DNA of 64,000 nucleotides from Acorus gramineus (lineage: Eukaryota > Streptophyta > Magnoliopsida > Acorales > Acoraceae). Below are positions 1 to 59,900 of the stretch, piece after piece. The notes beneath the pieces were generated by a model that did not search any database, was not told where the DNA came from, and saw only the letters and a program-made list of their open reading frames with translations. The translations under genes and the position numbers were made by a program. Every line of letters begins with the position of its first letter. Within the stretch, counting starts at the first letter, position 1. The DNA lies in contig CM060847.1 of NCBI GenBank assembly GCA_030737835.1, positions 17,445,979-17,509,978 on the forward strand, in the 5' to 3' direction.

Positions 1-1393
1 CTGAATTAGACCTCCTCAAGGCATCAACATATAGAGGCAACTCAGCATATGATTCCTCCCAATTTCCAAATATCCTCTCCATAGCCTTCCATTTGGCACG
101 GTTTGCCTTTGAATATGAAATTGTGTAGTGATGATCAGCACGTATCCTGTCCATTATCTCAGTAGCACTGATTCTCAAATTATGACGAATCGTTGGCATA
201 ATCAGCTGTGAGATATAATCAGAACTAAATTGTCTGTGATTTGAACTGAGAAGAGGATCCAAGCATGTATGAGGAACTCTCAGAGTGGAAATCTTGAACA
301 TTTCTGAACCACCGACCCTCCTCGCATATAATCTCCAATTACATTCATCATTTATGCACTTAACGGCGTATTTTTCTGCATTTGATTTCACCACATGACA
401 TTGTGCGCATTTCTTTATGCTCCAGGTTCGGACAGCATTAATGAGTGACTTCTTATTCGCGAAAAGCTGACCAACCTCAAGTTCATTACACGAAGAAGAT
501 CCGATTTCATAAATGCATGGATGGACATTTTCAGCCACCGCCTGCTCCATAAGCTCACGTGTAGGAAACATTTGAGGAACACCATATTCACTGATGGCAG
601 TTCTCCTCACATCATGGTCCTCCTCACTATCAGGTTCCTCTGCTTCTTCTTCTTCTTCGGAATCTTCTTCATAATCATCCTCTTCTTCTTCTTCCCCTTC
701 TTGATCTTCTTCTTCTCCCCAATCTTGATCTTCTTCTTCTCCCCCTTCTTGATCTTCTTCTCCTTCATTGTTCACTTCAATTCCTTCACGAATATCGTCC
801 CAACCCATGTCATGAAATGGGGACCTATAAATGCAAACACAATATACTTACATATATGAATACACCCACCAAAAACATCCTATAAATTCACAATACTTAC
901 AAATGTGGTATATTCACACTCCCATAGGCATTGGTCGGTGTTGCATCAATAATATTCTCTTGGGTGCACGGAACAAACGACGACGATGAAGGTTGATATG
1001 GTTCACGAACAATGGAAGGATATGAATCTTCTGCATCATAATTCATCGCGCCACGGACTCTTTGTATGATCTCTTCCTTCTCTAACCATATTTGAATGAT
1101 ATGCGCGTGCTTTGGGTACATCATTATCATTACTTTCACCCCCGTATCATCTTCGAGAGGGGCACCCAACACTTTCCGTCGTGAGTTGGATGCACAGCAG
1201 TCATGGACAATTTGTAAAGACTTGGATCGGTCCCCGTCAAATGGTACATCATTTGGAGTAAATCGACATAAGAGATCTTCTTATTTATGATGGTGGTTTT
1301 CATGGTACCACCTTCATAAAATGAACTATCTTCGCGTCGAACAATCCTCCCGTTAAAAGAGTACATTAACGGGACATCGGATTTCTTTACCAT
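1..1393 (-). CDS. MuDR-type (MULE) transposase, N-terminal part, cut by left window edge
   Basis: Reading the minus strand, an ATG at 1393 opens a MULE N-terminal domain containing SYVDLLQMMYHLTGTDP. An intron with good GT/AG ends appears to span 900-825, and a second exon is then open without stops from 824 to the window edge. Exon 2 encodes a long Glu/Asp-rich stretch, then the plant MuDR DNA-binding region with FANKKSLINAVRTWSIKK, CNWRLYARRV and HTC, then YSKANRAKWKA and EESYAELPLYVDALRRSNS, which in this family lie just before the DDE catalytic core (outside the window). Between GKCWVPL and EDDTGVKV near 1165 the frame changes by one base, so this copy may be disabled or the base may be a sequencing error. 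The product would be a nuclear cut-and-paste transposase. The family call is firm; activity cannot be judged. Confidence 0.88.
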
Positions 1394-1948
1394 CTAAACC
1401 ATAAATTATTCAACTTAGTAAATATATTTCTAAATTCATAATAATAAAATCCATCCAACACATACACATTAAACACAAAAAACATTCATGCAACACATAC
1501 AAAGCATATTTCCTAAAAATAGCCTTTAATTTTTTAAAAATGTTTACTAAGAGGCCATTGAATTATTTCCTAAGGCCATACAATTTTTAAAAAAAATTTC
1601 AAATTTTTTTAAGATTTAAAAGTTTATTTTGACAAATAAGACATTTTAAAATAACCAAAACCCTAAAAAAATTCGCATTTCACTTAACAAAACATCATAC
1701 AATCAACATTCCAATAATAAATAAATTCAACATTCAACATTTAGGATTTTTTATAAAAACCCTAATTTATTCAATAAAATCAAAACAATTGACAAATAAA
1801 TAATAAAATTCAAGAACATTTAGGGTTTTGATGTTTACCTTCGGATTCAAACTTGTTTTTGATGATTTTTCGGGGTTGGCAACGGGTGGGTGGGTGAAAG
1901 AGGGAGAAAAGGGGTGAAATTTTTGGTGTTTTAGGGCTTGGCAGCGGG

Positions 1949-1970
1949 GACGGCATATATATATGCCGTC
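1949..1970. repeat. 22-nt perfect palindrome with GACGGC arms
   Basis: The sequence gacggcatatatatatgccgtc-type arm pair reads the same on both strands over 22 nt. It carries the same GGAGACGG-type core as the second palindrome 58 bp downstream and lies just inside the MULE terminal region. Confidence 0.85.
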
Positions 1971-2028
1971 TCCAGTTGTTTTTTTTTAGGATTGCTATAT
2001 ATCCTTAGTTGTTTTTTTTAGGATTGCA

Positions 2029-2066
2029 ACACTGGAGACGGATTATATATAATCCGTCTCCAGTGT
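2029..2066. repeat. 38-nt perfect palindrome, core ACTGGAGACGG
   Basis: Arms ACACTGGAGACGGATTAT and their reverse complement meet around ATAT with no mismatch across 38 nt. The bases before it repeat a 'ttgttttttttaggattgc' unit also present at about 1975-1995, so the two palindromes appear to belong to one duplicated module. It could extrude as a cruciform or be a protein-binding subterminal repeat of the MULE. Confidence 0.88.
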
Positions 2067-2245
2067 AAAATGCCATCGGGGCTAGTTTTTGCAAATATTC
2101 GGGTGGGGGGGCTATTTTTGTAAATATTTATTTTTCCGGGGCTAAAAATGCTAATTTCCCTTAAAGAAAAATCACTGGTTAAAGTACATGCTATATAGAG
2201 AGTGAAGTATAGAAATACTAGTATATATTTCTTTAAAAAAATAGA

Positions 2246-3098
2246 AAAATTAATTAGAGGTCCCTGGGTATACCTCTATATTAACGAAAAGTCATTTGAC
2301 TTTTTTTACTTTTTTTTAAAGTCCCTATAATTTATGAGACATTATTTCTAAGTCATTGACAATAATTGCTAAGTTCCTAAAGTGATTGAGACATTATTTC
2401 TAGGTCCCTGTCAATAACTGTCCTTAGACTAGCCTTTAGACCCCCATTTAACAGTGTACCGAGATGACTTAACAGTGTACATATTCATATCATGAGGGTG
2501 TGATTTAGCAATTTGCACAAGTAACTTAACAGTTAGCAGTTTACCCAGATAATTTTATAGCATTCAAATTTACCTCATTTGCGAATACCCCAAAGGCGTC
2601 AACATTTTTCTCCCCCTTCTCATTGTCAGCTTCATGACCCACTTAAATAATCGTGGGGAGACATGAGTTGTCAACCTCCATCTACTAGTTCTTGTGTGCT
2701 CGTAAAACCAAACCTATAAAAATAATTTAATTAATTCTCATGATGAAATAATAATAAATTGAACAATAACATTCTTCAAATAATGAGAAACTTACATATT
2801 GGATCGTTGTACAACAAAAAAACGTATCCCATTGAAGACGAGTCCAAGATGAGGGTCTCCCCAAAAACCGGCAGCTCTATGGTCAGGGCAATGTCTTCGC
2901 CAGTCAATGAGATCGGTTTCTTATATGTACACTATTAAGTCATTTTTGTACACTGTTAAAGGGGAGTCTAAATGGCAAGTACTGTCAGGGACCCAGAAAT
3001 AATGTCTCAGCTACTTTAGGTACTAAAAAAAAAGAGTAAAAAAATCAAGGGATTTATCATTAATACGGTGGTATCCCCATGGACCTGTAATTAATTTT
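2246..3098. mobile_element. Long-TIR DNA element carrying gene-like fragments
   Basis: The left end (AAAATTAATTAGAGGTCCCT at 2246) and the right end read on the minus strand (AAAATTAATTACAGGTCCAT from 3098) align as imperfect inverted repeats of roughly 200 bp. Shared motifs include GAGACATTATTTCT and AACAGTGTAC. The centre is not repeat-like. On the minus strand it holds an open stretch at about 2920-2797 containing DWRRHCPDHRAAGFWGDPH, a GTAAGT donor, an AT-rich gap ending TATAG, and a second open stretch at about 2708-2570 containing WFYEHTRTSRWRLTTHVSP. I do not recognise the protein with certainty; the second part recalls plant transposon-associated mobile-domain proteins. I could not reconcile reading phase across the apparent intron. 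Confidence 0.65.
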
Positions 3099-3354
3099 CC
3101 CATAAAAAATTAAAAAAATTAATTTTTATATGCTATGATAATACATTACACATTGTGATAGCATAGTGTATGTTATACTATTGTAGTATAAGTGATGCGA
3201 AATACATTATGATAGGCAGCTGTGGACTATTTTTGAGCTATAGATAGGATGCAAAAGTGCAAAACTGACCGAGTCTATCAGTGTTTTTTTTTTTATAAAA
3301 TGATATGTTCAACTATGTGTAGTACTGTAATCTTGTTTGTCACCTTTATCAGGT
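3099..3354. other. AT-rich spacer, no gene seen
   Basis: This interval is AT-rich with short variants of 'tgtgatagtgcagtgtata'-type motifs that reappear inside the tandem array to the right. No coding potential was seen. Confidence 0.6.
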
Positions 3355-5310
3355 TATTTTACAAAAAATATACGTTCGTTTTTATAAAAAGTGAAATATA
3401 TACTAACATACACCAATTTATTTTTCTTTAACAAATTAATTTTTTTAATTTTTTTATACACTAAAATAGTGTAATATACACTGTGATAGTGCAGTGTATA
3501 TGTGGTTTAACTGGTTAGGGGATTTTTTTTTATTTGGAGATGGTACTGTAAAATGGAGTCTGTACATTAATGTACATTCATATATCATTCATTTTTAGCA
3601 TAATGGGGGGACTAAAATGCAGGGCTAAAAAGCAGGATAAATGCATTTTTAATGCAAGAAAATTTTGTAAATATAATGTATTCATTAAGGGGGCTATTTG
3701 TAAAAAATGAAAAAAAAAGAAAAAAAAACGAAGAAAAGAAAACTCGATATGATTAATAGATAGACATGCACTCAGTTTGTTTTATAATGCGGTCTGCCGT
3801 TATATTACAAAATCACACTGGTGTATGATCTCTATCACATAGTATGGTACAACAATTTTTATTTATATTTTAAAAATAAACTAGTGTGTTTTAATGTATA
3901 CTTCTATTCGGATAATAATATATATAAACAAAGCACATGGAGAAGGGAAGTACAGAGAGATTTTTATTCACTATTTGTGTTATAAAATACATTGCGAACT
4001 CCTCTATTTTATTTTACAAAAAATATACGTTCGTTTTTATAAAAAGTAAAATATATACTAAGATACACCAATTTTTTTTTCTTTAACAAATTAATTTTTT
4101 TAAGTTTTTTATACACTACAATAGTGTAATATATACTGTGATAGTGTATATGTGGTTTAATTGGTCGGGGGATTTTTTTTTATTTGGAGATGGTATTGCA
4201 AAATGGAGTCTGTACATTAATGTACATTCATATATCATTCATTTTTAGCATAATGGGGGGACTAAAATGCAGGGCTAAAAAGCAGGATAAATGCATTTTT
4301 AATGGAAGAAAAATTTGTACATATAATGTATTCATTAAGGGGGCTATTTGTAAAAAATGAAAAAAAAAACGAAGAAAAGAAAACTCCATATGATTAATAG
4401 ATAGACATGCACTCAGTTTGTTTTATAATGCGGTCTGCCGTTATATTACAAAATCACACTAGTGTATGATCTCTGTCACATAGTATGGTACAACAATTTT
4501 TATTTATATTTTAAAAATAAACTAGTGTGGTTTAATGTATACTACTATTCGGATAATAATATACATAAATAAAGCACACGGAGAAGCGAAGTAGAAATAG
4601 ATTTTTATTCACTATTTGTGTTATAAAATATATTGCGAACTCCTCTATTTTATTTTACAAAAAATATACGTTTGTTTTTATAAAAAGTGAAATATATACT
4701 AAGATACACCAATTTATTTTTCTTTAACAAATTAATTTTTTTAATTTTTTTATACACTACAATAGTGTAATATATACTGTGATAGTGCAGTGTATATGTG
4801 GTTTAACTGGTCGGGGGATTTTTTTTTATTTGGAGATGGTACTGCAAAATGGAGTCTGTACATTAATGTACATTCATATGTCATTCATTTTTAGCATAAT
4901 GGGGGGACTAAAATGCAGGGCTAAAAAGCAGGATAAATGCATTTTTAATGCAAGAAAATTTTGTAAATATAATGTATTCATTAAGGGGGCTATTTGTAAA
5001 AAATGAAAAAAAAAAAAAGGAAAAAAAACGAAGAAAAGAAAACTCGATATGATTAATAGATAGACATGCACTCAGTTTGTTTTATAATGCGGTCTGCCGT
5101 TATATTACAAAATCACACTAGTGTATGATCTCCATCACATAGTATGGTACAACAATTTTTATTTATATTTTAAAAATAAATTAGTGTGTTTTAATGTATA
5201 CTTCTTTTCGGATAATAATATATATAAACAAAGCACATGGAGAGGCGAAGTAGAAAGAGATTTTTATTCACTATTTGTGTTTTAAAATACATTGCGAACT
5301 CCTCTATTTA
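3355..5310. repeat. Three tandem copies of a ~650 bp unit
   Basis: The marker 'acaaaaaatatacg' recurs at 3361, 4016 and 4657, giving periods of 655 and 641 bp. Each unit also contains 'gcggtctgccgttatattac' and 'attgcgaactcctctatt'. The copies differ by scattered substitutions and small indels. Copies 1 and 2 join the next unit at 'ctcctctattttattttaca'; the third instead runs into unique sequence with a TATA box on the minus strand. No meaningful ORF is present; the short ORFs are repeat by-products. Confidence 0.9.
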
Positions 5311-5313
5311 TAG
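5301..5313 (-). promoter_or_regulatory. TATA box reading leftward into the tandem array
   Basis: On the minus strand this reads CTATAAATAGAGG, a textbook plant TATA box, and the tandem unit begins within a few bases of it. The array therefore lies where a transcript from this promoter would start. Whether it belongs to a host RNA or to a decayed transposon is not clear. Confidence 0.45.
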
Positions 5314-6118
5314 GCTTGAAGTCCACATATTGAAAGTTACAAATTATAAGAGGTGAGGGGCTAATTAGTGGGATGATTAAGACTGAGAGTTGTTAAGTTG
5401 AAAGGTGAGTGGGTTATAAAGTTGAAAAAGGAAAATGATTGACAAGCCTCATTTCGTAGGCCCCTCATAAGTCCCATAACGTGGCATAGTTTGGATTATC
5501 CTAAATACCCTTGAAGTATTTTGTTAATGTTGACCGTAATTAATAGGGCGATTAACAAAATGGGATGGTAATTAATTACTAGAATCACCCATAATGACAT
5601 TGAAATATGTTATTTCCTTTTTTTTTTTTGAATTTCAACTTTTGAATTGTCCATCCATTTATTAAAAAAAAAAAAAAATTGTTCAGGCCGTTCAGAAAAT
5701 GATTTATTCTGGTGAAAAATAGAATTTATTTTGTTCACGCCGTGTGAAAAATAAGATTTATTTTTCAATTTTATATGTTAATTATGGTTTTTTTTTTATA
5801 TGTGAAACGTGGTTCTCAACATGGTATATCAGTAGATTAACATTTTGAATGTCAATTACATATTTATCCCTTTTTTAGTCTTTTTTCCACTTATTTTTTT
5901 ATTTGGCATCATTGACAAATGTGACTAACTGTTAGAGCAACGTAATTGTGAAGCATAGCTTCATTACAAAATATGAATGACTCTTAATATGATCTTTACT
6001 GGAACTATGAGTGTTATTATTCCTTTTTTAGTTTTTTATGTTTGTTTTTTAGTAATTATAACTGTACATTATTTTTATTTAATAATTTTTTGCATTTCAA
6101 TATAGTAAATACAGTGGA
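5314..6118. other. AT-rich intergenic DNA, nothing recognised
   Basis: Mostly low-complexity A/T tracts with no coding potential on either strand and no clear repeat ends. Confidence 0.5.
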
Positions 6119-7392: not shown

Positions 7393-7670
7393 CAATGCAT
7401 TGTAATAGTTAGTTACATTTACTGATCATTTTATACACACCAGTACATTGTAATAGTTAGTTACATTTACTGATCATTTTATACATTGTAATAGTTAGTT
7501 ACATTTACTGATCATTTTATACGCACCAATAAAACCTGCAATACATTGTAATAGTTAGTTATATTTACTGATCATTTTATGTACACTAGTAAAAATTGTA
7601 ATATATTATAATAGTTAGTTACATTTACTGATTATTTTATGTACACCAATAAAAACTTAAAGTCAGTTAC
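7393..7670. repeat. Tandem array around 'aatagttagttacatttactga'
   Basis: At least five copies of a 40-70 bp unit built on 'tagttacatttactgat' plus 'cattttat' occur in succession. Unit length varies because 'acaccaataaaa' segments are present in only some copies. Minisatellite-like. Confidence 0.85.
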
Positions 7671-15104: not shown

Positions 15105-17119
15105 TGTTGGGAAACAAATACGCGGAAGCCCACAATAAAAAACGAGATCGAATACAAGAACGGAACACAATCACACGAAGAACAAAAAAATACATGGTTC
15201 GGCCTAGGCCTACATCCACGGGGTAAAAACAGAGAATCCACTATAATAGTTGAGATACAAAAAAGCCTTACAAACTCTCTTTCATGGAGTTACCCTCTCT
15301 TGAACCCTCTCAACCTCTCTCCTATGGATCTCTACATTTTATCTGTATGTGCCAAGCCAAGTTTTACCCTGAAATCCTAGAGGATATTTATATGAATAAA
15401 TAACTTCCTCTCTAAGTAATCTTCTAATAAACAAATCCGTTTCCCTTATTTTAGGAGATTCACCTTATATCTTAATTAAGATCAAATCTTAATTAATTAC
15501 CAATTAGGTGCACACTCTAATATGGTTTCATCATGACCATCCGATATTGATACACCGGATCGAGACATAATCCCAACAATTTTTACTTTGGCTCGAATTC
15601 GGTAAACTCCGACTTCCACGAACCCCTTGAAGATTTATGTTGATGTCTCCACCTCGCTCTGCAAACTCCACCTGGCTGAAGAACTTTTCTTCTTCCAGAA
15701 GTCTGCACTGCTGCATCTCCAAGTCAGTATCTTGACTTGGTAATCATGTGAATCTGTCGCATGCTCTATGTGCGTTTCTGAAGAAGGGTCATCTGAATTC
15801 CACCTTAAACAAGCTATACCACGCACTCGCGAGCTCCGAATACCTGGACTCGCTTTTTACATGAACCACCTGGGATGCCACCCTGGTTCAGAACGCCTTC
15901 TGTGTGTTGCGTCTCTGAAGAACGATTTGGACTCCACCTTGAACAAGTTACACCACACGTTTGCGATCTCCGAATACCTGGACTCGCTTTTTACCTGAAC
16001 CACTTAGGACGCCACCCGGGTTCAGAACGCCTTCTCTGTGTTGTGTCTTTGAAGAAAGATCTGGACTCCACCTTGAACAAACACACCACGCGATCGCAAG
16101 CTCTGAACCTGAACACGCTTTTTACTTGAACCACCTGGGACACCACCCGGGTTCAGAATGCCTTTTCTGTGTTGCATTGTTTCATCTTCTTCTTCTGCAC
16201 GAACTAAGCATCCACATCATGTGCCTCGCATAGGCCATTTCGCGCTCATCGTTGCATGCCGCCTCGCATCTTGCATCTTCGCACGTGCCTCCGCACGTGC
16301 TCTTGGCCTGCACCCGTGCGTCCCCTTTGGTACGTCTCTGCATGGAATTTCATGAGTGCTACATGGCCCTCTTTTTGTATTTTCATGAACTCAATCATAT
16401 ACCTTCATGCGAATCCAATGCAATTAGGATTACACGTCGGCCATCTTTCATCCACGGTCAGAAATTTTTTTTTTTTCTTCGCAGCCACAGTGACCGTGAT
16501 AATTTTTTTTTTCTTCTTCTTCATATAGAACCTCAATACGACATTGTTGAACTTCTTCAATCCATGTCGTTTCGTCATTCTTTAGATCTCGTTCTAGCTC
16601 CTAGGTCTTAATCTAGAGCTCTGATACAAGTTGTTGAAAAACAAATACGCGGAAGCCCATAATAAAACACGAGATCAAATACAAGAACGGAATACAATCA
16701 CACGAAGAACACAAAAATACGTGGTTCGGCCTAGGCCTACATCCACGGGACAAAAACAGATAATTCACTATAATAGTTGATATACAAAAAAGTCTTACAA
16801 ACTCTCTTTCATAGAGTTATCCTTTCTTGAAATCTCTCAACCTCTCTTATATGGATCTCTACATTTTATCTGTATGTGCCAAGCCAAGTTTTACCCTGAA
16901 ATCCTAGAGGATATTTATATGAATAAATAACTTTCTCTTTAAGTAATCTCCTAACAAACAAATCTGTAACAAACAAATATGTTCCCTGATTTTTAAAAAT
17001 TCACTTTATATCTTAATTAAGATTAAATCTTAATTAATTAACAATTAGGTGTCCACCCTAATATAATTTCATTATGACTATCCGATGTTGATATACTGGA
17101 CTAAGACATAATCCCAACA
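15105..17119 (-). mobile_element. Non-autonomous copia-like LTR element (fossil)
   Basis: Two direct repeats, 15105-15578 and 16632-17119, both begin TGTTG and end CCAACA. Just left of the right-hand repeat, the minus strand reads a diverged primer-binding site of the TGGTATCAGAGC class, so the element points left. The ~1.05 kb interior has no gag or pol sequence; instead it holds three ~135 bp tandem units. The LTRs differ by many substitutions and small indels by eye, so insertion is not recent. No matching target duplication is seen. Best classed as a defective, non-coding copia-derived element. Confidence 0.8.
15773..16180. repeat. ~135 bp tandem repeats inside the LTR element
   Basis: Units beginning near 15775, 15909 and 16044 share 'ctgaagaa', 'ctccaccttgaacaa', 'ctggactcgctttttac' and 'gggttcagaacgccttct'. 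The small ORFs they generate in several frames are not real genes. Confidence 0.85.
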
Positions 17120-20110: not shown

Positions 20111-20652
20111 GGGAAAAATCTATATAACCCACAGTAAGCTAACTGAAATCCATATAACCTCTGACTATTTTTTTAAATCCATATAACCCCTTAAAAACAC
20201 ATAATAAATCCAAATAACCACCTGAATAAAATTTATGTTTACATATGATAAATATTTTGTGAATATTATGATTGATTAATCCTGATAGAAAACACAATAT
20301 ACAAAAAAAAAAACCCTATAATGTGTTAAAAATGTAAAATTTTTTCTATAAATGACGATTTTACTCATCCGAAAAAGGGTTTTATAATATATCTAGAGAG
20401 ATAAAATCATTATTTTTATAGGATTTTTTATATTTTTAACAAATTGTAGTGGTTTTTTTAGTATATTGTGTTTTCAGTCAGGGTTAACCAAATGAAATAT
20501 TCACAAAATATTCATCATCTATTGACGAAAATTTTATTGAGGGGGTTATTTGGATTTGCTAGATGTTTTTAGGGGGTTATATGAATTTTAAAAAAAGTTA
20601 AGGGATTACATGAAGTTCAATCAAGTTTAAAGGGGTTATATGGATTTTTCCC
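20111..20652. mobile_element. Foldback element, about 540 bp, almost all inverted repeat
   Basis: The left half starting GGGAAAAATCTATATAACCC pairs with the right half ending in its inverted match GGGAAAAATCCATATAACCC, over about 270 bp each. Shared words are 'aaatccaaataacc' and 'gaaaacacaatata'. A diverged relative occupies 23955-24435. The long TIRs and GGG start suggest a Mutator-type MITE. Confidence 0.75.
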
Positions 20653-23954: not shown

Positions 23955-24435
23955 ACCCCTTGACTTTTCATATAAAGTCTATAATACGTTAAATCTTTTA
24001 TGTAAATTTAAATAGTCACTTAAATTAAATTTTTATTGATAGATTAAAATTATTATGTAAATATTTTGTTCGATTAATCCTGATTGAAAACATAATATAT
24101 CAAAACCTCCTAAAATATGTAAAAAAATGTGCAAATCATCTATAAATTACGATTTTATTCCTCGAGATAATGTTTTATAATCTATTCGAATTAATAAAAT
24201 AGTTATGTACAGAATGTTTTTTTACATTTTTAATAAATTGTATTAGGTTTTAGTATACTGTGTTTTCTTAACAAAATTGAATATTCACGGAATATTTCTT
24301 ATATGTCAATGGAAGTTTAATTCAGAGGTTTGAATTTATGGATATGTGTTTTTAAGGGGTTACATGGATTTTTGGAAAAGTCACGGGGTTACGTGTATTT
24401 CAAGTAATTTATAGGGGGTTATTTGAATGTTTCCC
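23955..24435. mobile_element. Diverged relative of the 20111-20652 foldback element
   Basis: Shares 'gattaatcctgat', 'gaaaacataatata', 'aaggggttacatggattttt' and the terminal 'tttccc' with the element at 20111. The left half is more decayed, so the left boundary is approximate. Confidence 0.55.
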
Positions 24436-24979
24436 AAAAAAAAAAAAAAAAAAAAACCCAACTTTAAATAAACAATGACGAACCAATGAAGCATCGCCGA
24501 AACTTCAACGAAACGCGTCTCTCTCTCTCTCTCTCTTAAGTCATTGCTTCCGTCACTTGCTCACATTCAATGGTGGCCGACGTCATCAGCTAGACTTCAT
24601 CAGCAATACTTCCATCATCAGTTCCCCCAAAAACCAATCCAAATCACGATTAGATTTTAGCAAAACCAAGCAATAAAAGTCGAAAAAAGGAAGCTTTTTT
24701 TGGTCCCTTCGATTCCTTTCACTCCCCTTTCAATTGGGTCTCCTTGGGATTCGTGATATTGTTTGGATTTCCCCTTCTGGGTTCTTTTAAAAAATGTGAT
24801 TTTTTTTACGAGGGTGGGAAAAATCGAAGATCTTCTGAGGGAGGTTTGTGTTTTTTTATCTGAATTTTAGCTGTTGTTGTTTGTTCTGATTTGATTTGTT
24901 TTGGGCATCTTTGATTCATTGTTTTTACGCCCAGTTTTCATTAATACATATGTCGTTCTGTTTTAATTGCAGTGCAGTT
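24436..24979 (+). promoter_or_regulatory. Probable promoter and 5' leader of the NPR gene
   Basis: Lies between a transposon relic and the leader repeats. It carries three TGACG cores: 24476-24480 on plus, and CGTCA (minus-strand TGACG) at 24551-24555 and 24581-24585, the last within GACGTCATC. TGACG is the binding core of TGA bZIP factors, known partners of NPR proteins. A CT run at about 24515-24536 resembles a plant pyrimidine patch near a start site. 'ttctgttttaattgcag' ending near 24972 looks like an intron acceptor, so a 5' UTR intron is possible. Confidence 0.45.
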
Positions 24980-25303
24980 GACCCAGCTAGGTTTTGATCA
25001 AAATAATGCAGTATCAAAACCCATTGAAAAGATCGATTTTTTTTGGGTGAGCCAGATAAGATCTGATCAAAATAGATGCAATAACACTCGAAACTTATGG
25101 AAAAATCGTTTTTTGGGGTGACCCAGAGAAGCACTGATAAAAAATAAATGCAATAACACTTGAAACAAATTGAAAAGTCTTTTTTTGGGGGGCGACCCAT
25201 ATAGATTTGGATCAGAATTGATGCTATAACACCCAAAAAATACTGAAAAAACAGTTTTCTGGGGTGACCCAGATAAAATCTGATCCCAATCCATGTGAAA
25301 AAC
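24980..25303 (+). repeat. ~72 bp tandem repeat with tiny upstream ORFs in the NPR leader
   Basis: The marker GACCCAG (or a variant) occurs at 24980, 25049, 25120, 25194 and 25266, giving spacings of 69-74 bp and about 4.5 copies that end at the main ATG. Upstream ORFs on plus: 25006-25050 (14 codons), 25076-25084 (ATG CAA TAA), 25097-25147 (16 codons), 25148-25156 (ATG CAA TAA), 25221-25229 (ATG CTA TAA) and 25293-25298 (ATG TGA). The ATGCAATAA ORFs sit at the same place in successive units. Antisense ORFs here only mirror the repeat. Confidence 0.88.
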
Positions 25304-28300
25304 ATGGCAAACCAGACTGAACCCTCCTCCTCATTGAGCTTCACCTCTTCTTCCTACCTTTCCAATGGCGCGAGCCGCAGCTACAAAATGACTACCCCAA
25401 CTGGTCCCGAACAGGGGACCAGCCTCGAAATCGTAAGCCTCAGCAAGCTCAGCTCCCACCTTGAGAAGCTCCTGATCGACACCGAACTCGACTGCTCTGA
25501 TGCGGAGGTGGTCATCGAAGGGACCTCCGTTGGGGTCCATCGGTGCATCTTGTCCGCGAGGTCCAAGTTTTTTCATGATCTCTTTGTGAGGGAGAATCAA
25601 TCGGTGGGCTCCAATGGGAAGCCAAAGTATTGCATGGAGGATTTGGTGCCGAATGGGAGGGTCAGTTACGAGGCGTTCATGGTGTTCTTGGGGTATTTGT
25701 ACACCGGGAAGCTCAAACAGTCACCTCCGGAGGTGTGCACGTGTGTTGACACGGCGTGCCCACACGATGCTTGCCGTCCAGCGGTCAATTTTGTCGTGGA
25801 GTTGTTGTATGCTTCTTCAGTGTTTCAGATTGCGGAGTTGGTCTCACTGTTTCAGGTAGATATGGTTTTGTTTCTATAAAGATAACTGTGTTTGTTTGTT
25901 TCCATATGTGCATGTATGATAGTGAGGAATTCAAAGCCTTTCAATTGAATGGATACATTATATATAGTTAGTTATATTATTTGGACTATGATCTTTCTTA
26001 AGAGACTATTTTTTATTATCTTTTATTGCTTCTTTCATCATGTGTCCCTTTTTGGAAATTCTTAGGTAATGACTTGATTAAGGTTTTTTTTATTTTTATT
26101 CCTGACTGAAGATGCAAATTAAGAAAGAGTAATTATTTTTACTAAATCAGTGGCTTTTCAAGGTGATTATGCAAATACTGATGAACAGATTTGGGAACAT
26201 GATGTCGGCATATCTTTTGATATAATATCTTTCTCAAGTCATAATGAGCCTGGTTATGCTAACAAAAATATATGAAAGCTCTTTGGATTAATCCCACATA
26301 TGCTCATTTAAGTTATACACACACACACACACTCTTTAAGACAAAGATAGCGGTCCCTTCATCTATAATGGGTGAAATGCAATATTGATTAGTGTGCTCA
26401 CTTTTACAATCATTCCATTGAAAGTTTTCTCTCTTCAAAAGTTGATTATTAATTGATTATATGAATTCTAACTATGAAAGCTCCAGGGGCATAGTAGTTT
26501 ATAATACTAATGCACACTAAAACAATGCCGTAATTCTCAATAATTTTTCATGTGGCATCAGCAGTTGTTCATTCTTCAATAATTTATTGTGGCTCCATTT
26601 TGTTCTCTTGAATAGCTATAAAATGAAGAAACTGAGTTTGATTCTGACATAAGAGTATTGTTTTTGTTTTTTTTTTCAGCGTCGCCTTCTCAACTTTGTT
26701 GAAAAGGCACTTGCGGAGGATGTAATCCCAATTCTCCAGGTTGCTTTCCATTCACAACTCAACCAGCTTCTAGCCCATTGCATCCAGAGAGTAGCACGAT
26801 CAGATCTTGACAGCATTTATCTGGAGAAAGAGCTTCCTCAAAAGGTTGTGGAAGAAATCAAATCTCTTCAGCTAAAATCTCTGCCAGAAGGATCTGAAGC
26901 CCCAATTGTGGACCCTGTGCATGAAAAAAGGGTCAGGAGGATCCACAGGGCGCTCGATTGTGATGATGTTGAGCTCGTAAAACTACTGCTAACTGAATCT
27001 AACATCACCTTGGACAATGCCAATGCACTACACTATGCAGCTGCCTATTGTGATTCAAAGGTTGTAGCTGAGGTACTGGATCTGGGATTGGCTGATGTTA
27101 ATCTTAAGAATCCAAGAGGATACACGCCTCTTCACGTGGCTGCCATGCGTAGGGAGCCGGCGGTGATTGTTTCGCTTTTGACTAAAGGTGCTAATGCATC
27201 AGAGACAACAGCGGATGGTCAAAGTGCCGTCAGTATATGCCGTAGACTGACAAGGACAAAGGATTATTATACAAAGACAGAACAGGGTCAGGAATCCAAT
27301 AAAGACAAGATATGTATAGATATTCTTGAGAGGGAGATGAGGAGAAACCCTATGGCTGGTGAAGAAACAACTTCCTCCCCGGTGATTGCCGATGATCTTC
27401 ACATGAAACTTCTGTATTTGGAAAATAGAGGTAATTTTCTGTCCATAACTTCTCTGATCCTTTCTGAATTTGATGATGGGTAGTCCTTAATTAAGATGGT
27501 CTTACATTTACTGGTGATGTCAAAGTTTGGCTTATGGTTGAAAATCTCCCATTTAAAAGTTGATTTCAGGGTTATTGGGTGTCAGCACATTCTACATATG
27601 TATAAGAATAGATCATATTATTTAAGCCGACCCCTTTTGCGGAGTTTGATGACACTTACAGGTTTGCCGCCTTGGGCGATGACATGGACTTCTTTTTTTC
27701 TCTGCGTCATTGTCCTTGGTCGAGTTGAAGAGGCTTCAACTTCAAACTCGGTAATCCCATGCATCACCCAGTGAAGTGAATCTTGATGAAGGAATAGTCT
27801 TTCCCTTTTGCTTTCATGCTCCATGTCGGCCTCACGCTCACCAAGAAAAATGCATGTCGAGGTGTTGGTGATGATTATTCATATATGACTGTATTTTGGT
27901 GATGGTGATATATATGAATTTGCATAGTTCATAAATTTGAAGTCATTGAAATAAGTCTTTTACATGGTCCAAGATTATGAAACGTCTCATGGGACCTTGT
28001 AAAGTCACCATTGTCATGTTAAATTTTAATGAATCCCAGTCTGGGATTCATTGAAATTTAACATGACAATGGTGACTAGGTAGACTATAGATGCACTTAT
28101 CTCGTTACCAGGTGGAACTGGTATAATCTGTTATGGTTGGCACATGGTAAGCCTGATTCTTATTTTTGATTTATTTTCGGGGATTCTAGCCTTCACCGTG
28201 GATGGGATGAATAACCTGAAACTGGAAAGCTGTTTGATTAGCACTGTAGCTATATGTCCAATTTTATATGGACAGCATCAATCTGCCATTCTGCCTGGAC

Positions 28301-31069
28301 AGTTGATATTCGTGAACAACATTCCAGCTGCACGCTATCTATAGTAAAGTGCCACTGGATAAACCTTACCAACTGAGGAATTATTCATTGCATTATCATA
28401 CTTGCATCCAACTGAACCCTGAATTAAATGTGGGTGATGGCACATGTGTGATGTTCTTTGCCCCTTAAAATAAATATGTGAAGATGGGTTTTCTAACTTT
28501 TATTTGTATAGTCTGTTTTTTTTTTTTTCTTTCTAACTTTCTAACTTTTTATTTGTATTGTTGTTATCTCTGGAACAACTTTAATCTAATTTGGTGCTTC
28601 TAACCTTCAATTATTCATTTTACCTACTAAATTTATCCTTGTGTTATTTGTGACTAAATTTACTCTGTTTTGTGTCTCCTTTTTATGTATAACTTTCTGA
28701 TGGCTAAGATTTTTCTTTGATTTCAGTTGCATTTGCTAGGTTGTTCTTTCCTGCTGAGGCCAAGCTCGCCATGGAAATTGCACAAGCAGAAACGACATCA
28801 GAATTTGCAGGTCTTTTGGCAAATAGAGGCTCATCTGGTAACCTGAGAGAGGTTGATTTAAACGAAACACCTTCTGTCCAAAAGAAAAGGCTTCGTTCAA
28901 GGATGGACGCACTGATGAGAACAGGTACCTTGACATTGTCAGATTCTTATTTCCTTTCAAGTACATATATATTCTATTATACAACTTCAAAATTTCAATT
29001 GTGGAAGAAAGATATGATAACAAGGAAAGGATTTGATGCTATATATTTCATGCACTATTTTAATTTATATCCGGACTCTGCTAATTGGGGCATCTACACA
29101 AAGTATGCATTTGACAACAAAAATATAGCAATGTCCAACGACCCTCGTATTGATTAATATTTGAATTCAAAGTCTCAATGGGATATGGATTTTGATTTCT
29201 ATTTTCTCCCGTAATCATATTCTAATGCCCCATACTTACGCAGCAAGTGTTCATATATAAACACAAACTATTCTCTCTTGATAAGCATTGTGGTTCTAAA
29301 CCACAGTATAGGTTCTCACCTCATCCTTTATCCCACAATCTATTGGGATCTTGAGTAGCCCAGTCTACCATGCCCATGATGGACACATGACAACCACCCT
29401 TCTCTATTCCCGTGCATCCCCATGTGACATCACATGCTCTGATACCAAATTTAACGCTGAATATTTGCATCATGGTTTTGTTTTTTGGAGCATCCACAGA
29501 CAGTAGTCACAGTACATATTTATTATTTAGTAAATCATTTCAAGGAATCTTTCATCTGTAACATGATTAATACACCATTGCATATTACTTTCCAACAGTG
29601 AAGAAAAAGGGCTCTGATTAGGCAGTAGTACAACATACATTATGCAGATGATATATCCACATCTTCTGTACCAATAAACATGCACCTAATGCCTCTTATT
29701 TCTCTGAAATCTGAAAGGAAGGCTATTAGAGCAGCTCCAATATGGAGATTTGAAGACCAATTCCCCTCGTCCAACTATAGGTCTTCATTTTCAAAATTAA
29801 TTCTATATTTGGAGACCCACTATTTAGGTCTCTATATGTCACATCAATGAGGATGTCACAAATGACTTTGTTAACTTATAACAACTTTTGATAAATGACA
29901 TTTAACTCCTACAAAATTATAAATTCCTAATTTTCCATTTGTATTTAATAAAAATATGGAATTTTGAAAAAAAAATTACAAAAAAATTTCATGTAAAGTT
30001 CAAAAGCAATGTTTCAAAAACCAAATCATTCATTGAACCGGAAAAATGAATGGGATAAAGAGTCACCGGTTCAATTGTCAAGTGATTCAAATTTCAAATG
30101 TGGGTGGTTTTAAAATTTCAAATTTCAAAATGAAAAATTTGAAATTCGAATTTCTAAAATTTTAAATTACACATCTCTCTCTCAAACTTTACTATAAAAC
30201 CTGTATATCATCACTATTATCCGTCATCTTAATAGTGATTTGAAGATCTACACCAAAAAATTAGGAATTTTAACAAATCAAAATAGTGATTTGAAGACCT
30301 ACATCAAAAAAATTGAAGATTCATCATTGGAATTGATGAGTTTTCAAAATAGCAAAATCTTCAAAATGAAGACCCCATTGGAGTTCAGGGGTCTTCAAAA
30401 GTTATAAATCTCCAAGGGGTCTTCAAAAGTTATAAATCTCCAATAGGAGTCTTCAAAATGAAGACCCCCATTGGAGATGCTCTTAGAGATGCAGTAGGTG
30501 CTTTTTTTTGCTGTGTCATGCACACTTATATATCGACCTCAGGTAGGTTTGGAGAGTAATACGTGAAATTTATTTGTGCCTACAAGTACAAAGTTCTGCA
30601 GGCACCAACTAATAAATTCTGTTGCATTTGAAATGAGTCTTTTCTCACTTGCATTTCACCAGACATGCGCTGCTAAATTTAACACAGTAGTGTACCCACA
30701 TTCGGCATAACATAGTAATCCATAAGAAAGTGCCAATGCATACTATATGTTATGATAGTTCACATGATTCTCTCTGAAATGGCTGAATGTTCAAATTAAA
30801 TTGCAGTGGAGATGGGCCGGCGTTACTTTCCCCACTGCTCTCTAGTGCTTGATAAGTTCATGGAGGACGACTTGCCCGACCTCTTTTACCTTGAAAGGGG
30901 CACACTCGATGAGCAGAACATAAAGCGTAAGCGCTTCGGCGAGCTCAAGGAGGACGTCAGGAAGGCATTTAGCAAAGACAAAGCTGAGAGCAACCGGTCT
31001 GGTTTGTCTTCCTCTTCATCCTCTTCTTCACAGAAGGAAGGTACAAGACAGAAAGGTGGGAGAAAGTAA
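25304..31069 (+). CDS. NPR3/4-like: NPR3/NPR4-type salicylic-acid receptor, four exons
   Basis: Exons 25304-25855, 26680-27430, 28727-28924 and 30807-31069, all with GT/AG introns, join in frame to 587 codons, the usual length for the family. The first ATG is 25304; the codons before it start with GTG. Domains: BTB/POZ (about 64-184) with VHRCILSARS; C2HC zinc finger C147-x4-C152-x-H154-x2-C157; ankyrin region (about 265-370, e.g. GYTPLHVAAMRREPAV); then LYLENRVAFARLFFPAEAK, the salicylate-binding core, whose Arg434 falls at the exon 2/3 junction. VDLNETP (477-483) is the EAR-like repression motif that marks NPR3/NPR4 rather than NPR1. KRKR (540-543) may be a nuclear signal. Known members bind salicylic acid, TGA factors and CUL3 adaptors to restrain defence genes. 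Expected site: nucleus. No disabling change seen. Confidence 0.96.
28003..28077. repeat. 37 bp near-perfect inverted repeat in NPR intron 2
   Basis: The arm 28003-28039 (starting AGTCACCATTGTCATG) pairs with 28041-28077 with one mismatch and a single-base spacer. The flank at 27961-28001 contains a shorter imperfect pair, 'acatggtcc' / 'gggaccttgt'. Transcribed as part of the intron, it would fold into a 37 bp hairpin. Confidence 0.9.
29729..30482. mobile_element. Harbinger-like element in NPR intron 3
   Basis: Bounded by GAGCAGCTCCAAT and the inverted ATTGGAGATGCTC, with TTA duplications at 29726-29728 and 30483-30485. 'tcaaaagttataaatctcca' is repeated twice near the right end. 754 bp, non-coding; it accounts for much of the length of intron 3. 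Confidence 0.85.
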
Positions 31070-56995: not shown

Positions 56996-59900
56996 ATGGA
57001 TATTGCAAAAGGAGCTGGGAAGATGTTATGGGAGCCCATAAAACTCCATGCGAGCTACTTCATTTGTTGTGAGAGATATGTCGATGATCTGAATGTCCAT
57101 GTCAAGAAGTTGGATCCAAAGAAGAAGGACCGCGAAAAAATGGCCAATGAAATCGGGAAAGAACCATCAGAAGAACTATTGGACTGGCTGAAAAAAGTCG
57201 AAGAAGTCAATGATGATGCAAAAAGAATGACTGATAAGGTTGGAGAACACCAGCATTGCTTCACTTGGCTCTCTGACTTGGGCTCACGTCATAGCCTGGG
57301 CAAGGAAGCAGTGGAGAAGAAAGCCTTGGTAGATCAGCTCCAAGAGCAGAACATGGAACATATAGCAGTGCCTGTACATGTTCAAGTGATCGAATCATTG
57401 ATCAATAAGGATTTTAAGCTTTATCAATCCACAGATTTAGCCTTGCAGAAGGTTATGGATGCATTGCAGAATGGAGTGCACAGCATCGGTTTGTATGGAA
57501 TGGGTGGTGTTGGTAAGACTACTCTAGCAAAAGAGATCGAGAGACGAGCATTGGAACAGAACATGTTCAAAAAGGCTATCATGGTGGCAATTTCTCAAAA
57601 ACCAAATTTTGATATCATACGTGAAAAAATGGCAGAGCAACTAGGAATCAATATCAAGCAAGAGAGCGTATCATCAGCGAAGCTTTTCAGTCTAATAAAA
57701 CAACAAGTAGGCCAGATTCTTATAATATTGGACGATATGTGGAGGAGATTGGACTTATTAGAGATCGGGATCCCCCATGATTGCTGCAAGATCATCATGA
57801 CATCTCGCGATGTAGAAGTATGTACATCCATGGGAATCAAAGAAAATATAGAGTTAGGAGTCTTATCTCCAAAAGATTCATGGGAACTGTTCAAAGCATA
57901 CTCTGATGTGGTTGAATCCTCCTCCGAATTGCAATGTCGTGTGGCACAAGATGTCGCCTCTGAATGCAAAGGATTGCCATTGGCTATAGTGACAGTTGGA
58001 AGGGCATTGAGAGGAAAAAGCTTGCCTGAATGGAAGGATGCGCTGGTTCAACTGAGAGCATCTGTTCCTGATAATATTTCCGAATTGAAAGATGTGTATA
58101 TGCAACTTAAATTGAGTTATGATCATTTAAGCAAAGAAGCCCAATCATGCTTCTTATTGTGCAGTCTGTTTCCGGAAGATGATGAAATTTCCGTTGAACT
58201 GTTGACTTGGTATGCAATGGGGGAGGGTTTTTTGCAATGTGTCAACACACTTGAAGAATCAAAAAATAGAGTATTGTCTTTGGTTAATAAACTAAAGGCA
58301 TCCTGCTTATTATTGGAGGAAGGAGAAGAAGGAAAAATGGTGAAAATGCATGACGTCGTTAGAGATGTCGCTATATACATCGGATCAAATGAAAACCATG
58401 AAGGCTGTCTTTCAAAATCTTATCAAAATGAGCCAGATTGGGACAAATGGGAAACTGTGAAAGAATGTAAGAGGCTTTCTGTGATGAATAAGAGCATTTG
58501 TACCCTTCCAGAGAAACCTCCCGAGTGCTCGTACGTCCAAACTTTGTTGTTACAATGGAATTCAAAATTGATAAAGATTCCTGATAAATTTTTTGAGAAG
58601 ATGACATCGCTCAGAGTGTTGGATCTCAGCTGTACCTCCATATCATCGCTTCCTGCATCCATGAGTTACCTCACAAATCTACAGGTGATCCTTCTAGATT
58701 ACTGTAGAAATCTAGAAGATATATCTGCGCTGGGGAGCCAAAATAAACTTCAGGTGCTTAGCTTAAGATCTACTAAAGTGGAGGAGATGTCAGAGGTTGT
58801 TGGTAAATTTACTGGTTTGAAGTATTTAGATTTGAGAAATATTTACGAACTGAGAATACCGCCAAAAGTGATATCAAATCTGTGCCAGTTGGAAGAACTC
58901 CACGTGGGAGATAGTTTCACTGAATGGGAAGTTGAGGGAGAGGAAACCGAAGAAAATGCTCCTTTACATGAAATCCAGTCATTGATAAAATTGAAAGTAC
59001 TATCAATCAAAGTGGACAAATATTGGGAAGACATGCTAGACAGGGTCTTCATAAAAAGACTTGAAAGATTTCATATCGTAGTCGGCCCAAATTGGCAAAC
59101 TTGGCGTGATTATATTAATACGTTGGATTGGACTTATCTGAACGTTAATTTGGCAAACTTGGGTCTCCCTGGTTGGGCATGTGCGTTGTTGCATAAAACA
59201 GAATTATTGAAGCTAGTGAAATCCAGCTGCCGTCAGTTGGATGCCACGGGTGGCGGTGGTTTGCAGTGTATGAAGATTCTTACATTAAAGGAGTGCAATG
59301 AAATGGAATTCATTGTTATCGGCCAAAATAGGTCGAGCATCCCCTGCATTATACTCCCTCGTCTAGAAAGGTTGCATTTAAAAGACATGGAGAAATTGAG
59401 AGGTATATGCAGCAGTCCACTTCCTAATGGCTCCCTGGAGGAACTGGAGTTTCTGGAATTAGAGAAGTGCAAGGAAATGGAATTCATCGTTATCGGTCAA
59501 AATAGCTCGAGCATCCCCTGCATTATACTCCCTCGTCTGAAAAGGTTGTATTTAAAAGACATGGAGAAATTGAGAGGTATATGCAGCAGTCCACTTCCTA
59601 ATGGCTCCCTGAAGGAATTGAGGTCCCTGAAGGTCTATAATTGCTCTAAACTAAATATTCACCAAATTCTTCAGCAGTCCACTTCCCTGGAGGAATTTTA
59701 TATCTGGAGGCAAGACTCCATGAGAGAGGAATTCAGCCCTTGTTCGGCCAGCAGAGCATTGCTTCCGAGGTTGAGACGTATGAATCTCAGTGGTTTTTTA
59801 CCTGAGTTGATGAGCATATGGAAGGGGGATTCCGTGCCTCCATTGGGAAGTTTCTCCAACCTTATTGAACTCAAACTGATCGAATGCAATGAATTGAAAT

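Follow-up and report, generated by a model that had tools for sequence, protein, structure and literature searches.

The NPR3/4-type gene described here starts directly behind a tandem repeat that carries several upstream ATGs, and this raises the question whether the repeat belongs to the messenger RNA and, if so, what it does to the synthesis of a salicylate receptor. The gene lies on the forward strand of a 64,000-nucleotide stretch of Acorus gramineus DNA, which was analyzed as a whole and is referred to as the window. Our gene model comprises four coding exons on the + strand (25304..25855, with an AxxATGG start; 26680..27430; 28727..28924; and 30807..31069, including the stop codon), which encode 587 residues in an unbroken frame. 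Domains of the BTB, ankyrin, and NPR1_like_C type match above the Pfam cut-offs. NPR1 leads among the solved relatives of the full-length protein (391.7 bits), since no full-length NPR4 appeared among the matches listed. Within the C-terminal 157 residues NPR4 reaches 118.5 bits (114 residues) versus 88.9 bits for NPR1 (146 residues), and by sequence comparison this part of the protein is closer to NPR4 than to NPR1. An earlier interpretation of this DNA, hereafter the sequence-only reading, had proposed an NPR3/4 gene behind a repeat-built leader with upstream open reading frames (uORFs); the sequence supports this, and the coding frame is intact. If exon 1 is searched against the genome, five places are found, namely two identical copies, the other NPR-like gene of this genome on C8 with only 43% identity, and two matches on C2 with 33-34%.

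Five tandem units fill 24979-25303 (+), and the end of this array abuts the start codon at 25304 (325 nt, ~4.55 copies). Based on core alignment, the units comprise 24979..25047, 25048..25118, 25119..25192, 25193..25264, and 25265..25303 (all +), the last one being truncated after 39 nt at the start codon. Their 27-nt cores, the best-kept part of all five units, start at 24979, 25048, 25119, 25193, and 25265 with a spacing of 69, 71, 74, and 72 nt. The claim of a ~72 bp repeat in 4.5 copies directly before the NPR start was consequently borne out. As a repeat the array exceeds chance: unit 1 aligned to units 2-3 scores 53, while 1000 mononucleotide shuffles average 20 and never exceed 38, and unit 5 aligned to units 2-3 scores 50 (shuffle average 17, maximum 31). 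The array is nevertheless decayed, since inter-unit identity is now 62-83%, which corresponds to 17-38% difference (10 pairs, leader part only), and the extent of this decay is evident from Tandem Repeats Finder detecting just 2.1 copies (25038-25190). The main ATG, which had been placed within the next repeat unit, in fact follows the truncated unit 5. From 25304 on, resemblance to the units is at chance level, with a score of 16 compared to 15.8 on average in shuffles (P 0.53), and 27 out of 67 further segments of coding exon 1 score at least as high; an extension of the repeat into coding sequence or intron was rejected, as the scores are at shuffle level. In the genome (398.6 Mb, 137 contigs), a search that skips simple repeats and very common words found the array at two places, this locus and one identical second locus copy. 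Since both matches represent this locus, a dispersed element was rejected. Tandem repeats occur elsewhere in the window too (86 entries listed), for example at 15791-16175 (134 bp units), 7398-7657 (about 60 bp), and 59284-59617 (174 bp).

Splice signals and base composition suggest that the array would be retained in the mRNA. A T-rich 5'-UTR intron (24842..24972, +), predicted from its composition (T 53%), its GT start, and the acceptor TTTTAATTGCAG, probably ends just before the array, which begins 6 nt after it. With a T content of 26% compared to 53% in the predicted intron, the array is not intron-like in base composition. The acceptor at 24972 shares the form GCAG/T with the gene's third intron and is first in line, just upstream of the array. 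On the other side of the predicted intron we place a presumed first leader exon (24520..24841, +; 5' limit arbitrary), which rests on the donor-like GGGAG/GTTTGT at 24842 and holds upstream ATGs (uATGs) at 24570 and 24794. If a start at 24520 is assumed, the spliced leader would measure 653 nt and contain eight uATGs, two of them being start-stops.

All six array ATGs named by the sequence-only reading are present, each with its ORF as given (all +): a uORF of 14 codons (25006..25050, AxxATGC), ATG CAA TAA (25076..25084, TxxATGC), a uORF of 16 codons whose stop abuts the next uATG (25097..25147, CxxATGG), a second ATG CAA TAA (25148..25156, TxxATGC), ATG CTA TAA (25221..25229, TxxATGC), and the start-stop ATGTGA, which ends 5 nt before the main ATG (25293..25298, TxxATGT). 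Every one of these six uORFs terminates upstream of the main ATG. Two elements of the presumed first leader exon had not been mentioned before: another start-stop ATGTGA (24794..24799, +, AxxATGT), which is kept in the second locus copy, and a uORF of 7 codons encoding MVADVIS (24570..24593, +, TxxATGG), which would be relevant only if transcription starts upstream of it. The leader had been described as packed with uORFs. However, the 6 ATGs of the array fall below the average of 9.9 found in 2000 dinucleotide shuffles, and 98.5% of the shuffled sequences contain at least 6. In excess are ORFs of at most two codons (4 versus 0.96 in dinucleotide shuffles, P 0.014), although these four do not represent independent events, since the units are copies of each other. 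The aligned unit ATG is invariant in all five units, as counted on unit rows copied by hand from the alignment, but 3 other column triples of 42 possible are equally invariant, and special retention of the ATG is thus unsupported. Counted over the 331 bases before their presumed starts (splicing ignored), BOP-like and NPR1-like genes of this genome contain 1, 2, and 5 ATGs, and the array count of 6 is unexceptional beside the NPR1-like gene. Moreover, uORFs alone are ordinary, since according to the review PMC12857212 54.6% of Arabidopsis transcripts hold upstream AUGs (uAUGs).

Four of the six uATGs in the array have T at position -3, and none combines a purine at -3 with G at +4, whereas the main ATG (AxxATGG) has both. 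Leaky scanning is therefore to be expected, and strong gating by the array uORFs appears doubtful. As stated in the review PMC7503886, uORFs depress translation of the main ORF cumulatively, and more so if their stop is nearer to the main AUG.

Besides uORFs, the leader is predicted to contain RNA structure. The region 24973-25330 folds at -86.1 kcal/mol (z -3.2), and 0 of 100 dinucleotide shuffles are as stable. Windows of 30 nt at or below -7 kcal/mol, a threshold chosen post hoc with the hairpins already seen, amount to 16.5% versus 3.2% in shuffles (0 of 100 reach the observed value). Since the units share one founder, the whole-leader z partly repeats the contribution of a single hairpin. 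In the predicted folds hairpins stand out in units 2, 3, and 5: one at the junction of units 1 and 2 (25035..25063, +, about -10.0 kcal/mol), a 9-bp hairpin with a GUGA loop in unit 3 (25109..25130, +), and a further one with a GUGA loop in unit 5 (25252..25282, +, about -11.8 kcal/mol), for which 24, 18, and 5 of 1000 mononucleotide shuffles, respectively, are as stable. Units 1 and 4 gave no notable hairpin by the same measure (413 and 252 of 1000). If single units are compared to their own dinucleotide shuffles, 11, 46, 18, 14, and 4 of 200 are as stable for units 1-5 (unit 2 taken as 25034-25100), and only unit 5 is remarkable. Compensatory pairing in the unit hairpin was looked for and not found, as its pairs show no covariation among 4 units (135 of 500 shuffles score as high). 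Downstream of the array uAUGs, predicted pairing is clearly above the leader mean (0.52) for one of six at +4..+15, and above it for three of six at +13..+30. The last start-stop AUG is predicted to pair with the main AUG in a 6-bp stem, CCAUGU-GAAAA-ACAUGG (25291..25307, +), with inner pairs 0.62-0.64 probable and the outer pair 0.25; 17 of 1285 window ATGs sit in a comparable stem, which is a post hoc observation. The single match of an Rfam search, MIR845_2 with 21.1 bits against a cut-off of 80, was taken as chance.

Our preferred reading, to which we assign a probability of about 0.5, is that the leader acts as a fixed, mild brake of uORFs and hairpins which goes back to an old tandem duplication; that the array is transcribed and affects translation is what we infer from its position and content. 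The array would be the second 5'-leader exon of a single-copy gene of the NPR3/4 type, and it would have originated from tandem duplication of a leader segment of ~72 nt, followed by decay. Scanning ribosomes would then encounter six upstream AUGs, four of which open ORFs of one or two codons, together with small hairpins. Most of these AUGs would be bypassed by leaky scanning owing to their weak context, while part of the ribosomes would be consumed or obliged to reinitiate. A further share might be diverted by the last start-stop AUG, which lies 5 nt away from the main AUG and could base-pair with it. The outcome would be a constant, mild to moderate decrease in translation and no copy-number dial. 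This reading is favored because the array is bounded by a predicted T-rich intron and the start codon and has a non-intron composition, and because the frame is intact, the uORFs stop before the main ATG, the uATG contexts are weak, and the leader folds with a z of -3.2. It is weakened by a uATG count below that of shuffles, by the modest folding of the units, by the lack of covariation, and by possible acceptors within the array.

A serious rival is neutral debris, which we rate as distinctly less probable than the mild brake but well ahead of the other alternatives. According to it, the duplication was fixed in a tolerant leader and has been decaying freely ever since, and on balance its uATGs would hardly alter the protein level. 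An ATG number below shuffles, a unit ATG conserved no better than 3 other column triples, weak uATG contexts, hairpins without covariation, units of merely 62-83% identity, and a window rich in other tandem repeats (86 entries) all speak for such debris. The leader folding (z -3.2) speaks against it. A second objection comes from the second copy of the locus (C1:17336700-17337030, 134 kb away), which is identical over 331 bp that include the array. However, these 0 differences are notable only at the regional rate, at which 6.4 would be expected in 331 bp, and are to be expected at the local rate (0.85; 4 differences in 1553 bp). Coding exon 1 is identical in the second copy too, while 3 mismatches fall into coding exons 2-3 and 4 into the presumed first leader exon. 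Since no differences between the two locus copies were found over 24725-26014, the array merely shares its identity with a wider quiet region, and this identity therefore does not point to selection on the array. The idea that repeat copy number tunes the synthesis of the receptor found no support, since the units are decayed (62-83% identical) and both compared copies are identical over the 331 bp (n=2).

These two locus copies are probably alleles from an unmerged or unpurged haplotype overlap. The window starts directly after a gap of 10,000 N (C1:17435979-17445978), its first 34 kb align at 96.6% to the contig left of this gap, about 134 kb upstream, and, within a 5.9 kb piece close to the end of the left contig, positions 755-5900 match 17627828-17632986 right of the gap at 96%. 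Based on the gap, the overlap, and the match beyond the gap, we favor the other haplotype over two tandem genes or a true duplication, which is less likely. A second probe gave no match right of the gap among 40 candidates scored; it was swamped by a dispersed repeat and is regarded as neutral. A near-perfect inverted repeat within NPR intron 2 (28004-28076; -56.5 kcal/mol over 27995-28085) lacks an exact counterpart in the piece from the other haplotype.

It is unlikely, though conceivable, that the array is partly or wholly absent from the mRNA, in which case alternative 3' splice sites within the units or a downstream transcription start would set the number of uORFs. T-runs followed by CCAG are indeed found in units 2, 3, and 5 (25055, 25126, 25272), and the T content upstream of 25055 is 0.45. 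For the AGs at 25126 and 25272 it is 0.36 and 0.27, compared to 0.36 for the gene's third predicted acceptor, and owing to this resemblance a splice acceptor inside the array has to be considered. However, G-runs stand between T-run and AG, the array contains only 26% T, and the acceptor at 24972 comes first in line with the GCAG/T form of the third intron.

One might speculate in another direction, namely that each unit represents a module of hairpin plus uAUG, that duplication of such modules built a graded brake releasable by helicases, and that the terminal hairpin is a switch which exposes or hides both start codons together. To us, this elaboration is rather improbable. Least probable of all is that the unit acts as DNA, with repeated transcription factor sites (TGACCCAG, TGATCA) in a transcribed enhancer: the 27-nt core is best kept across the five units and 3 of the 5 occurrences of GGGNGACCC in the window lie within the array (0.43 expected for the whole window), but recurrence alone is no evidence, the copies being non-independent, and the array holds a single W-box-type TTGACY (24978). 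With 44 TTGACY in the window versus 75.9 expected, a W-box array was rejected. A pattern search with ATGCAATAA delivered thousands of matches and was uninformative, and a bacterial-type promoter scan was disregarded as meaningless for a plant gene.

The mild brake that we prefer shares features with several known systems. In uAUG-ds elements, a double-stranded RNA segment closely follows an upstream AUG (Xiang et al., 2023, PMC10499604). Likewise, the leader of the plant immune regulator described here has uAUGs followed by predicted hairpins, and RNA structure might conceivably help to choose between uAUG and main AUG. However, the published structures described in PMC10499604 mostly range from -19.9 to -34.1 kcal/mol, comprise 12-20 pairs, and start within 25 nt, whereas the array hairpins reach only about -10 to -11.8 kcal/mol with 9-12 pairs and start 26-30 nt downstream of the aligned uAUGs, with 25097 as the sole case of 9 nt. 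Furthermore, they are part of a tandem repeat, unlike uAUG-ds. The AUG-stop of Arabidopsis NIP5;1, which is boron-dependent (PMC7503886, PMC11915504), also consists of a start codon and an immediate stop in a plant leader. Two such elements, 24794 and 25293, are known here from the DNA; they read AUGUGA, while that of NIP5;1 is AUGUAA. We know of no link between this NPR3/4-type gene and boron.

The TBF1 leader with its two uORFs (PMC12857212) is similar in that uORFs precede a plant immune regulator, but the account in PMC12857212 does not describe them as tandem repeats. Purine runs of at least 8 nt are absent from the array and the longest run of the presumed first exon has 12 nt, which does not amount to an R-motif, the purine-only element of leaders. 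A leader tandem repeat that ends near the start codon is known from human TYMS, where a 28-bp repeat ends 13 bp from it (PMC3320636). The copy number is polymorphic there, whereas the decayed Acorus array shows no difference between the two copies compared (n=2), and no mention of uORFs was found in the TYMS account of PMC3320636. No case of tandem duplication multiplying uORFs ahead of an NPR3/4 gene was found in the open-licence literature searched; in PMC9229442, the sole mention of uORFs stands in the reference list.

If the leader is part of the mRNA, it would represent regulatory uORFs that were multiplied by tandem duplication before a salicylate receptor, and it would provide a natural setting for testing whether minimal uORFs in series have additive effects. 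Otherwise, the locus would be a reminder that leaders which look rich in ATGs can hold fewer of them than chance. The wider surroundings of the gene contain a palindromic element (20111-20652) that is 75% self-complementary over 550 bp and recurs many times in the genome (of 11211 candidates, 40 were scored). Another copy, ~70% alike, is located at about 23957-24437, just upstream of the NPR leader.
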